From contig NZ_CP087952.1 in NCBI RefSeq assembly GCF_028752835.1, positions 3,470,501 to 3,534,500 on the forward strand: a stretch of 64,000 nucleotides of DNA. The letters are read 5' to 3'. The translations under genes and the position numbers were made by a program. Positions 38,337 to 42,284 of this stretch are shown one piece after another. The stretch is from Desulfosarcina sp. BuS5 (GTDB taxonomy: Bacteria > Desulfobacterota > Desulfobacteria > Desulfobacterales > BuS5). A model generated the notes under the pieces. The model did no database searches and was not told the DNA's origin. It was given only the letters and a program-made list of their open reading frames with translations. Numbering within the stretch: position 1 is the stretch's first letter; each line of letters opens with the position of its first letter.

Positions 38337-38442
38337 TATAGACCGTCACATAAATAATTTCACTGCGTTATCGGTCGGAGATATACGATTAGTATTATCT
38401 CCTCGCTCTAGCCTTGTGAAATTAATTATGTGAAAATCTATA
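38337..38442 (+). repeat. Dispersed hairpin repeat, copy E
   Basis: TATAGACCGTCACATAAATA, then TTTCACTGCGTTATCGGTCG. The centre is a third type of hairpin, GGAGATA..TATTATCTCC. The right flank is GCCTTGTGAAATTAATTATG, ending AAATCTATA. It ends at the GAGGG Shine-Dalgarno of the next gene. Confidence 0.88.
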
Positions 38443-38454
38443 GAGGGAAAAGTT

Positions 38455-39117
38455 ATGCTAACTGAAAAACAAGAAGAGATCATGGAGGCAATCTGGTGCG
38501 CAGGGGAGCACCGAAATTACTCCGTCGAGGCTGTCCGGAAAAACTGTGTTATCGATTTTACTGCATCAGAACTGGCAGTCCTTGAAGAGATGGGCTTAAT
38601 TGTTACCAATGCTGATAAAATCCTGTTTTCAAGTACGGGCAAACAACTGGCTGAAAGGATTATGCGATGTCACCGCCTGGCCGAAGTATTGATCTCTACT
38701 GTTCTAAAACTGAAAAATTCAGCAATGGAAGAAGTGGCGTGTAAAGTGGAACACTGTCTGGAGCCAGAGCTGGAAGAGTCAATCTGCACCCTGCTAGGGC
38801 ATCCGGAAGTCTGTCCCGACGGCAAACTTATTCCAAGGGGACGCTGCTGCAAAAAAAGATTAAAAGTGGTCAATAGTGTAGTTATGGGGCTGGATAAGCT
38901 CAAGCCTAGAGAAAAAGGAAAAATTTCCTATATCGAGCCCGGCAGTCATTCCAATTTGCATCAATTGATCTCCCTGGGTCTGCATCCCGGAATTGTGGTT
39001 TCGGTTCATCGCACGGCCCCCGCCGTTTGCATAAAATTTGATAACACCGAATTGGCCCTGGACAAAGAAATCGCCAAAAACATATTTATATGGAAAATTG
39101 ATTCGGCTATTTCATAA
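38455..39117 (+). CDS. DtxR/MntR-family metal-dependent regulator with FeoA-like C-terminal domain
   Basis: The 220-residue cytoplasmic repressor has an N-terminal winged-helix region (LTEKQEEIMEAIW, VLEEMGLIV, FSSTGKQLAERIMRCHRL). A metal-binding dimerisation region follows (AMEEVACKVEHCLEPELEE, HPEVCPDGKLIPRG). Residues about 145-215 form a FeoA/SH3-like domain (LISLGLHPGIVVSVHRTAP). The N-terminal HTH is weakly conserved. Placed directly after feoB, it most likely senses Fe(II) or Mn(II) and controls iron genes. Its Shine-Dalgarno (GAGGG) directly follows dispersed repeat copy E. Confidence 0.85.
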   Translation: MLTEKQEEIMEAIWCAGEHRNYSVEAVRKNCVIDFTASELAVLEEMGLIVTNADKILFSSTGKQLAERIMRCHRLAEVLISTVLKLKNSAMEEVACKVEHCLEPELEESICTLLGHPEVCPDGKLIPRGRCCKKRLKVVNSVVMGLDKLKPREKGKISYIEPGSHSNLHQLISLGLHPGIVVSVHRTAPAVCIKFDNTELALDKEIAKNIFIWKIDSAIS

Positions 39118-39205
39118 AAAAGTTGTAAATGCTCAGGTGGAGAGGCTGAAGGCAACATGCTGTCCGCGTTACAAAATTTCCAACACAGGGCCGTGCCTGC
39201 ACCAC

Positions 39206-39226
39206 GAAACCTGAAACCTGAAACCT
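39206..39226. repeat. Three tandem GAAACCT heptamers
   Basis: GAAACCT occurs three times in a row 20 bp before the DUF445 start. It is a simple slippage-prone tract in that gene's leader. Confidence 0.8.
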
Positions 39227-39245
39227 GTATCTGGAGAAATAGAAT

Positions 39246-39971
39246 ATGGAAAACAAAATTTTTAAACCCAACATGAGTTTAACCACAAACCTGTTATCAT
39301 CTTTGTGTGTCATTACAGGCGCAATCTTATCAAATCATATAATTTTTAATACCGGTTTATTTGCGCTCTCAGGCGCAATAACAAACTGGCTGGCGATTCA
39401 TATGCTTTTTGAAAAAGTGCCGGGATTATATGGCTCAGGAGTAATACCGGCCAGGTTCGAGGATTTTAAAAAAGGCATTCATGCCCTTGTTATGGGCCAA
39501 TTTTTTAACCATGAGAATATGGAACGTTTTTTCGAGCAATCCGCATCTGAAAACATTGACCTCTCCCCGGTTATAGATCGGATCGATTTTGACCCCTCAT
39601 TCGATACAGTTCTGACCGTGATTATGGAATCATCTTTTGCGCCCATCCTCGGCATGATGGGAGGCGTTGAGGCATTGATGCCTTTGAAGGAGCCCTTTGT
39701 AGTAAAAATAAAGGAAATTTTTCTGGGAATCGCGAAAGATGATTCCATGCAGGACGGTATTCAAACAATTATAAAAAAAACGGCTGATATTAATGAAATT
39801 ATCAGCAAAATAGAAATCATTGTGCAGAAACGGCTTGATGAGCTTACCCCCCGAATGGTCAAAGAGATAATACAGGATATGATACGCAGGCATCTCGGAT
39901 GGCTTGTGGTCTGGGGCGGAGTTTTTGGAGGTTTAATCGGCCTTGTCACAGCTTTTATCCCTTCTAATTAA
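39246..39971 (+). CDS. DUF445 family membrane protein
   Basis: The 241-residue product has two N-terminal helices (LLSSLCVITGAILSNHIIF, then a GLFALSGAITNWLAIHMLF segment that carries the family mark GAITNWLA) and a final C-terminal helix (WLVVWGGVFGGLIGLVTAF). The middle is a helical cytoplasmic or periplasmic region. DUF445 proteins are widespread and have no established role. GGAG lies upstream of the ATG. Confidence 0.85.
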   Translation: MENKIFKPNMSLTTNLLSSLCVITGAILSNHIIFNTGLFALSGAITNWLAIHMLFEKVPGLYGSGVIPARFEDFKKGIHALVMGQFFNHENMERFFEQSASENIDLSPVIDRIDFDPSFDTVLTVIMESSFAPILGMMGGVEALMPLKEPFVVKIKEIFLGIAKDDSMQDGIQTIIKKTADINEIISKIEIIVQKRLDELTPRMVKEIIQDMIRRHLGWLVVWGGVFGGLIGLVTAFIPSN

Positions 39972-40007
39972 GGCGTTCTGTAAAAAACTATTCAAGCCTG
40001 CAACACT

Positions 40008-40145
40008 CAATGTTGTTAACTTAAGAAATTTTTGTTTAACTCTGTTTTTTCACCCTCATTCCCGCGCAGGCGGGAATCAATTAATACTGTCACTTCCCGT
40101 ATTCACGGGAATGACATAAAAAGAATTCTTAAGTTAATGACATTG
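40008..40145. mobile_element. 138-bp inverted-repeat element with 20-bp TIRs
   Basis: CAATGTTGTTAACTTAAGAA (40008-40027) pairs with TTCTTAAGTTAATGACATTG (40126-40145), with two mismatches. The interior contains TTCCCGCGCAGGCGGGAA, a GC-rich palindrome common in bacterial intergenic repeats, and a second CCCGTATTCACGGG hairpin. No coding sequence and no certain target duplication. The stretch 40146-40508 has no gene; a TCCTCCTT/AAGGAGGGA pairing near 40310-40400 is the only other structure. Confidence 0.8.
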
Positions 40146-40508
40146 CAGTAAAACTTTTAAGATTTATCCTATAAATATATGGTATTTATTTCATAAGCAT
40201 GTAGTATTCTTTTCACAACAAGCCAACCCCAAACTATTCCAAACAAAATTCATATCGGCATAACCATTTGATATAAAAGGTTATTAGATTTTTTTCATTT
40301 TTTTATCCTCCTTGGCACCAGGCTTGCAAGAGCAAACTGCAAGATACAGTTTTCAATTTCTGTTGCAAGTTATAAACGATAAAAATCAAAAGGAGGGATG
40401 ATTCAAAAAAAGAGTTTAAAACCAATGATTTTTTTAACAGGAATGCAATACTAAAATTTTTACCGCAACATTACACGATAACGAAGTCATAAATTTTAAA
40501 ACAAAGGG

Positions 40509-40635
40509 CAGCAATTCCCGGTCATAAATAGCTTAACTTATTGGAATCATTGAACTTTCAATTTTAGAGTTTGCGAAAACTCTTGTCTGATAACATAATA
40601 ATATCAGATAGTTAAGACCCGTCCGGGAATTGCTG
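40509..40635. mobile_element. 127-bp MITE in the leader of the PEP-CTERM gene (CAGCAATTC family, copy 2)
   Basis: The ends CAGCAATTCCCGG (40509-40521) and CCGGGAATTGCTG (40623-40635) are perfect inverted repeats. The flanks AACAAAGGG and AACAAAGGA are a 9-bp duplication with one mismatch. The internal pairs are CTTAACT/AGTTAAG (40532-40538, 40610-40616), AGAGTTT-GCGA-AAACTCT with a GNRA loop (40566-40583), and TCTGATA/TATCAGA (40586-40608). The right-hand duplication supplies the AAGGA Shine-Dalgarno of the next gene. The terminal nine bases match the element at 19438. Confidence 0.85.
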
Positions 40636-40651
40636 AACAAAGGAAAAAAAA

Positions 40652-41293
40652 ATGAAAAAATTTTCAAAAATTTTAATCGGAGCAGTTCTTGGTATGTTTC
40701 TGGTGGCCTGGAGTTCTTGGGCGATCCCGACACTTGAGATCACTGATGGAACAAATACTTTAACATTTCAAGATATAAATGGAGATGGGATTGTAGGTTC
40801 GTTTGGAGATATTGGTATCTTTAATTTTTATATGTCTGCCGGCACTACTAAACCGCAGGATGGCAGCGCTGCTTTCCCAATGATGCACGTAGGTGGATAT
40901 GCGACCACAAATGGCAGCGGAACCTTTACTGCCAAATTTAGTGAAACTGATTTTGGTCCGCTTAATAGCTCAATCACCGGATTTATCTCAAGCCTGAATG
41001 GTTTTGGTGGTACGCAATCCTTAGATGTTTATTACGATACAAACAATACTCTGTTTGGCATGGGTACCCAAATTGCGGACATTGATGCAATAAACACATC
41101 TCAATTATATAATGGGATCCTGGCCAGTAATCTATTTTCCCTTACCATGATAAGCACAATAACATTAAATAACGCTACCGGTTCTTTTGACAACGGCGTA
41201 AACCCCGTACCCGAACCGACAACCATGCTGCTTCTCGGAGTTGGTCTGATCGGTTTGGCAGGCGCAAGCCGGAAAAAGATTTTTAAATCATAA
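40652..41293 (+). CDS. PEP-CTERM sorting-domain exported protein
   Basis: The 213-residue protein has an N-terminal signal peptide (KILIGAVLGMFLVAWSSWA). A secreted domain follows, with the calcium-site-like DINGDGIVGSFGDIG. The C-terminus is a PEP-CTERM signal: VPEPT (186-190), the helix TMLLLGVGLIGLAGASR, then basic KKIFKS. It is probably exported and processed by an exosortase, none of which is in the window. AAGGA lies 8 nt before the ATG, at the very edge of the inserted MITE. Confidence 0.9.
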   Translation: MKKFSKILIGAVLGMFLVAWSSWAIPTLEITDGTNTLTFQDINGDGIVGSFGDIGIFNFYMSAGTTKPQDGSAAFPMMHVGGYATTNGSGTFTAKFSETDFGPLNSSITGFISSLNGFGGTQSLDVYYDTNNTLFGMGTQIADIDAINTSQLYNGILASNLFSLTMISTITLNNATGSFDNGVNPVPEPTTMLLLGVGLIGLAGASRKKIFKS

Positions 41294-41376
41294 AAATACT
41301 TTTTAATTGAATCTTTAAATCCTTGTTAAGTCCTGAAGTTAAGAAAAAACATGTTGCGTAAAGTCATGAAGGGGGG

Positions 41377-41397
41377 GGGAGATAATCTCTCCCTTTT
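41377..41397 (+). terminator. Rho-independent terminator of the PEP-CTERM gene
   Basis: GGGAGA (41377-41382), loop TAATC and TCTCCC (41388-41393) form a GC-rich stem followed by TTTT, 84 nt after the stop codon. A long G run precedes the stem. Confidence 0.75.
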
Positions 41398-41451
41398 GTG
41401 CTTTTGGGTTCCCCGTTTCTCGGCCCAGCCTCCATAAATAGCCCCAGGAGA

Positions 41452-41724: not shown

Positions 41725-42006
41725 ATGGGAAAACTTATGAATATCCTTCCGATAAGCGATTTGAGGCAGAACGCTGCCAAGGTCCTGAAAAAATTACGAG
41801 ACAACAAGGAACCCATTATCATTACACAAAGAGGTCGGGCAGCTGCCGTCATAATCGATATCGAGGCGTATGAAAAATCTGAACACGATAAAGAGCTCCT
41901 TCGGCTTTTGGCTAAGGGAGATAAGGAAATAGAAATAGGAGAGGGTTATGATCTTGATACTGTTCTTGCTGAAGCCGATTTAATCCTATCCCAGGAGCCA
42001 TCGTGA
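41725..42006 (+). CDS. Phd/YefM-type antitoxin
   Basis: The 93-residue antitoxin has the Phd/YefM N-terminal DNA-binding fold: ILPISDLRQNAAKVLKKLRD, then EPIIITQRGRAAAVIIDIEAY. The flexible C-terminus neutralises the toxin and the dimer usually represses the operon. AGGAGG lies 6 nt before the ATG. It overlaps the toxin start by 4 nt, the usual coupling. The lineage-specific C-terminus is acidic. Confidence 0.92.
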   Translation: MGKLMNILPISDLRQNAAKVLKKLRDNKEPIIITQRGRAAAVIIDIEAYEKSEHDKELLRLLAKGDKEIEIGEGYDLDTVLAEADLILSQEPS

Positions 42007-42284
42007 AAGTCCGCTTTACGCCTTCTGCCAAATCCCAGTTTCTATCTGCTCTCGCATATATTTGGCGGGATAAACCTTCTGCAGCAACCAGTTTTCGAGA
42101 GCATTCCGAAACAGTTTTGCGAAGGCTTGAGGACTTTCCTGAGTCTGGAAGAATCATACCAAAATTTCCATACCGTGAGGTAATCATATCACCATACCGA
42201 TTTTTTTATAAAATCAAAAATGATGTCGTTTGGATAGTTGTTGTGTGGCATGGTGCACAGCTTCCAAAGCAGCCAAGGCATTAA
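42003..42284 (+). CDS. ParE/RelE-superfamily toxin
   Basis: The 93-residue product starts at a GTG overlapping the antitoxin stop. The fold pattern is VRFTPSAKSQFLSALAYI, FPESGRIIPKF, YREVIISPYRFFYKIKND and VWIVVVWHGAQ, typical of ParE/RelE-like toxins that target gyrase or ribosome-bound mRNA. The R-x-x-Y-x-I/F-Y motif points to the ParE side, but the target cannot be decided from sequence alone. It forms a complete TA module with the upstream antitoxin. Confidence 0.9.
   Translation: MKVRFTPSAKSQFLSALAYIWRDKPSAATSFREHSETVLRRLEDFPESGRIIPKFPYREVIISPYRFFYKIKNDVVWIVVVWHGAQLPKQPRH

Follow-up and report, generated by a model that had tools for sequence, protein, structure and literature searches.

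What is the 127-bp sequence with inverted-repeat ends that lies immediately ahead of the ribosome-binding site of a PEP-CTERM gene in Desulfosarcina sp. BuS5, and does it act on that gene? The locus was analysed within a stretch of 64,000 nucleotides (contig NZ_CP087952.1, positions 3,470,501 to 3,534,500), hereafter the window, whose numbering is used for all positions given without a contig. Judged by its sequence, 40509-40635 is an insertion of a miniature inverted-repeat transposable element (MITE), an ordinary member of a familiar class of mobile element. Very probably it was mobilised in trans and inserted into the segment bearing the Shine-Dalgarno (SD) sequence, the SD was kept by the target duplication, and the element has since been tolerated as a near-neutral spacer in the leader, not as a switch. 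The parts of the locus are the following.

40509 to 40635, + strand: MITE of 127 bp, without an open reading frame (ORF), from sequence and genome copies
40509 to 40521, + strand: left terminal inverted repeat (TIR) CAGCAATTCCCGG, perfect over 13 bp
40623 to 40635, - strand: right TIR, CCGGGAATTGCTG as read on the + strand, perfect over 13 bp
40500 to 40508, no strand: left copy of the 9-bp target duplication, AACAAAGGG, with G in place of A as its last base
40636 to 40644, no strand: right copy of the target duplication, AACAAAGGA, holding the SD AAAGGA (40639-40644)
40652 to 41293, + strand: gene of a PEP-CTERM protein of 213 aa (PF07589, E=1.1e-7, and TIGR02595, both above cut-off)

The flanking repeats AACAAAGGG and AACAAAGGA are identical at 8/9 positions, and the SD stands 7 nt ahead of the ATG at 40652. 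Eight dispersed copies of the MITE were found in the host genome and fall into two subfamilies, with six near-identical copies including that in the window (94-100% alike) and two diverged copies (subfamily B, about 90% alike mutually and 67% to the window copy). Duplications of a constant 9 bp surround all eight of these independent insertions, six of them perfect (TACATACTG, GTTCGAGAT, GTGTTTCAT, ACAGAATAG, ACACTTTTT and ACGACCCAT) and two matching at 8/9. Eight genome copies, all with 9-bp duplications, exclude chance as the origin of the element. One subfamily B copy splits an ORF, near TTHYIEEAE, that resembles an ABC-transporter ATPase by eye. In 95 relatives no full-length copy was found; the search gave three matches, all short and partial, spread over two genomes.

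Sites without the element were found in both relatives checked, the same-genus genomes G001 and G002. The empty site in G002 is syntenic: C25:11885-9873 matches window 38440-40507 with 90% identity, and C25:9880-9794 then matches window 40636-40723. What fails to align between them is the MITE, and the 8 bases covered by both alignments are the duplication. In G001 the homologue encodes a protein 71% identical, and its leader ends in ...TTTTTAAACAAAGGAGTAAAAAATG without the MITE. Read from these two sites, the ancestral site is a Shine-Dalgarno resembling AACAAAGGA, and the altered base sits in the upstream, now unused copy. An earlier note on this DNA had described the perfect inverted ends, the near-perfect 9-bp duplication, the gene's SD within its right-hand copy and an inserted MITE in the leader of the PEP-CTERM gene, all of which hold. 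It had also proposed that orthologues keeping this leader with compensatory changes and no empty sites would make the element a true structured RNA, an outcome absent from both relatives.

In the proposed history, a DDE transposase able to recognise CAGCAATTCCCG ends would have mobilised the MITE in trans, cutting the target with a 9-bp stagger. The MITE would have entered AACAAAGGA, the SD-bearing segment of a probably sigma-54-driven PEP-CTERM gene, and gap repair would have doubled AACAAAGGA, so that the gene kept its SD at the original 7-nt distance from the ATG. The upstream duplicate, orphaned by this, would have changed from A to G at one base. In the mRNA the element probably forms a hairpin that is self-contained and stops 3 nt ahead of the SD. 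As this leaves the ribosome-binding site open, the insertion was probably a near-neutral spacer that the gene could tolerate, and not a switch favoured by selection. The locus would thus be a clear case of a transposon landing on a ribosome-binding site without evident damage to the gene, which regains the site through the target duplication.

Two more features were recognised further upstream.

40313 to 40328, + strand: predicted sigma-54 type promoter TGGCACCAGGCTTGCA (-24 GG, -12 GC), an exact match to TGGCAC-N5-TTGCW
40338 to 40499, + strand: ancestral 5' leader before the insertion, from alignment, with the transcript start presumed near 40338-40340

Exact sigma-54 consensus matches number two in the 64 kb, including TGGCACCAGGCTTGCA, and G001 and G002 each keep TGGCACCAGGCTTGCA with a single mismatch. 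The host genome holds the regulator PrsR (TIGR02915, over cut-off, C1:2657854), and both signs of an RpoN-dependent PEP-CTERM gene, the -24/-12 sequence and this regulator in the genome, are thus present. A mapped sigma-54-dependent PEP-CTERM gene is pepA of Aquincola, with TGGCAC/CTGCTT (PMC9850573). The gene studied here is probably sigma-54-driven, and, judging by the exact match upstream, transcripts probably include the MITE in their 5' leader, about 170 nt from their start. Promoter, leader and start region are conserved across the three genomes, the promoter-leader region sharing 84% identity with that of G002 and 70% with that of G001. Within the leader (40330-40499), about 160 nt between promoter and SD are conserved in all three (e.g. 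AAAAGGAGGGA.GATT and ACACGA.AACGAAGT).

The 127-nt MITE RNA is predicted to fold at -42.7 kcal/mol (z=-6.45; equally good shuffles 0/200) into a TIR stem, an inner stem and three hairpins, as the nested helices of the earlier note had anticipated, including its GNRA-capped hairpin with a GCGA loop.

40566 to 40583, + strand: internal hairpin AGAGTTT-GCGA-AAACTCT of 7 bp with a GNRA-type loop, GCAA in two other copies (folding)

In the model the SD is unpaired with a probability of 0.87 when the MITE is present and of 0.76 when the flanks are joined, and the leader around the element is predicted to fold in almost the same way in both cases. As SD access and leader fold are nearly the same with or without it, the MITE is in the model a self-contained hairpin that leaves the ribosome-binding site open. 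No alternative fold engaging the SD was seen in the folding model. Across the eight host copies 90% of cells pair in the structure, and 3/43 pairs are changed on both sides, a value reached in 118/500 shuffles. Most helix 5 pairs and several helix 3 pairs are broken in subfamily B, the interior of which folds differently, and the interior helices are not kept by compensatory change. Transposition by itself would account for the TIR stem. The earlier note's acquired RNA switch finds no support here, given the similar SD access, the broken helices and the lack of a fold pairing with the SD, and the covariance it proposed to seek in other genomic copies does not exceed that of shuffles by pair count. 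Its alternative, an insulator, fits in a weak sense, that of a modelled self-contained hairpin beside an open ribosome-binding site.

These results bear on three other explanations. The very stable fold and the GNRA-capped hairpin would suit a conserved structured RNA, a switch belonging to the PEP-CTERM leader and no transposon. We give that reading practically no credence: multiple copies sit at unrelated sites with 9-bp duplications, one of them splitting the ABC-transporter-like ORF, the element is absent from the leaders of both same-genus relatives, the interior helices are broken in subfamily B, and no Rfam family reached threshold for this region. It was rejected, since neither the syntenic empty site nor the target duplications can be reconciled with it. 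A MITE whose hairpin now regulates the PEP-CTERM mRNA, either by RNase processing at the TIR stem or by altered stability or ribosome entry that sets a new expression level, is unlikely. Its stem is strong, the upstream promoter suggests that the MITE is in the transcript, and in known cases RNase III cuts Correia transcripts at their TIRs and enterobacterial repetitive intergenic consensus (ERIC) elements change mRNA decay (PMC10969869). The modelled SD access is nearly the same, however, the perfect stem extends over just 13 bp before a bulge, and the interior varies freely between subfamilies. It is very improbable that the insertion cut or ended expression and that the gene is heading for loss, as might be suspected from the conserved leader now lying 136 bp from the start region; the ORF is intact and begins downstream of the MITE, and the PEP-CTERM motif, promoter and SD are all retained.

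Several observations weigh against the preferred reading of a trans-mobilised MITE tolerated as a near-neutral leader spacer. The duplication around the window copy is imperfect. The modelled unpaired probability of the ATG is 0.44 with the MITE and 0.57 with the flanks joined, and given this lower access a mild effect on expression is possible; neutrality itself is deduced from such models. The upstream neighbour genes in G001 are unlike those of the window, which makes that locus homologous, not syntenic. Lastly, a complete autonomous element was not found in the host genome.

Autonomous elements that could supply the transposase, a function for which the MITE has no coding capacity, were met in other genomes, where 1.4-1.7-kb elements with similar ends carry a DDE_Tnp_1-like transposase. 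A 1658-bp element with an intact 453-aa transposase, a 1445-bp transposase-bearing element and a copy on an Aureispira plasmid, the latter interrupted by IS4, each have a perfect 9-bp duplication; their ends deviate somewhat from the consensus (CAGCGATTTCCG, CAGCAATTCCAA and CAGCAATTCTAA). Exact ends occur in a 1402-bp copy without a duplication (G111) and in a 657-bp deleted form with a truncated transposase, which was reached via solo ends. Relatives of the latter transposase were found in the host genome and on plasmids of Legionella and Aureispira. The host itself has only a 5'-truncated transposase (G000:C1:2011671-2013212; L060 3672-5213), which adjoins a TCGGGAATTGCTG end (CAGCAATTCCCGA) and forms an in-frame fusion with the antisense strand of a glycosyltransferase-like gene.

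The transposases share invariant D residues and a GRA..IENETFNTLKNQ block. Against Pfam, DDE_Tnp_1 (22.9 bits, cut-off 23, E=8e-5) and DDE_Tnp_1_assoc (E=6.5e-4) both remained below cut-off, and no curated NCBIfam family of insertion sequences (IS) was reached (IS4, ISAs1, IS1634, IS1380 and others), the best being IS4_1 with 20.6 against a cut-off of 115. The RefSeq label is 'hypothetical protein'.

Two other transposases were rejected as the MITE's parent. The IS5-type transposase in a 979-bp stretch (L190 3067-4045, G099) has its own inner ends AGGGGCTGTTGCC/GGCAACAGCCCCT, so the stretch looks like a MITE with an IS5 inserted in it; that MITE is of the present end type and has a perfect 9-bp duplication. 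The second was an IS4 element with its own ends CAGTAGTGTCCGGTT, adjoining one of two right ends, each 112 bp long, that belong to a different element sharing the MITE's TIR (G000:C1:2231524-2231635, L030, where the IS4 lies, and 1199171-1199282, L025). These right ends are 97% alike, and no left end was seen for them.

GTDB genomes were scanned for CAGCAATTCCCG-N90..120-CGGGAATTGCTG, with element lengths of 114-144 bp allowed. At least 118 stretches with paired CAGCAATTCCCG ends were found in several phyla, and records among the matches listed include Chloroflexi/Thermoflexia/Anaerolineales, Gammaproteobacteria, Planctomycetota, Chlamydiae, Cytophagales and Deltaproteobacteria. Duplications at 8-9/9 flank 92/113 two-flank elements among the matches listed (74 at 9/9 and 18 at 8/9). 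In 28 such genomes the TIR 12-mer was counted 3-155 times, whereas its reversed control gave 0-1 per strand. Target sites of 96 insertions hold at most 0.14 bits of information per position, and a preference steering the MITE to SDs was rejected on this value; with almost no target preference, chance insertion and survival of the harmless cases suffice. A few of 89 duplication-flanked insertions lie no more than about 16 nt from a plausible start, one example being a Thermoflexia copy (L111) whose duplication GATAGGAGA carries AGGAG 8 nt ahead of an ATG. A fixed length near 122 bp, suggested by 13/18 loose clusters at 120-125 bp, was dropped in view of the 114-144-bp scan range and of 143-161-bp forms in other genomes. 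No paired ends were found in viral contigs over four spacing ranges. In several metagenome-assembled genomes the TIR 12-mer lies near contig ends (G109 and G113, e.g. positions 43-54), which suggests that MITEs with these ends break metagenome assemblies.

Among the papers searched, CAGCAATTCCCG occurs in four, none of which concerns transposons to judge by title and abstract. The widespread IS/MITE group is apparently undescribed. It is quite possible, if short of probable, that CAGCAATTCCCG ends with a 9-bp duplication define an undescribed IS/MITE superfamily across phyla, with a 'hypothetical' transposase of about 425-450 aa and MITEs that can enter SDs and preserve them by duplication. 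The interest of the locus lies in the SD kept by target duplication and in this broad, apparently unclassified group. MITEs that share these ends across distant phyla would be tied to an unclassified transposase, a link that would allow a class of unexplained repeats in environmental genomes to be annotated.

Among known systems, Correia elements make TA duplications. These elements of Neisseria, also NEMIS, are like the present one in being short, non-coding, palindromic MITEs, often just upstream of genes, with a possible mRNA hairpin (PMC10969869). Their ends are different, whereas here CAGCAATTCCCG ends and 9-bp duplications are known from sequence. QMITE2 of Coxiella burnetii is also a small MITE, mostly with 7-9-bp direct repeats of variable sequence, but it measures 150-190 bp, has ends of 23-29 bp with no sign of being the same, and lies mainly in 3' untranslated regions (PMC5896051). 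The Chunjie MITE of Geobacter uraniireducens is described as longer, at 178-235 bp against 127 bp here. IS4 and ISAs1-type IS (DDE_Tnp_1 superfamily) are similar in that the partner transposase weakly matches DDE_Tnp_1 and DDE_Tnp_1_assoc, and differ in that it belongs by score to none of their curated families. The size of the transposase-bearing elements presumably fits these IS as well.

Around the MITE, three minor features of the locus were noted. In the regions compared (window 40190-41419; G002:C25 9180-10193, L243 and L249; G001:C89 2130-3045, L061), the syntenic G002 locus keeps the promoter, leader, signal-peptide start and C-terminal PEP-CTERM part, with the protein middle (window 40724-41203) unaligned, and the G001 gene with a similar protein middle sits among other neighbours; the change of this surface-protein middle looks like cassette replacement. 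Downstream of the PEP-CTERM gene, two overlapping small ORFs (41725-42284) are antitoxin/toxin-like by eye (Phd/YefM-like and ParE/RelE-like). Upstream, a palindromic repeat-like intergenic sequence (ATTCCCGCGCAGGCGGGAAT, then TTCCCGTATTCACGGGAA) lies between two genes at 40055-40115.
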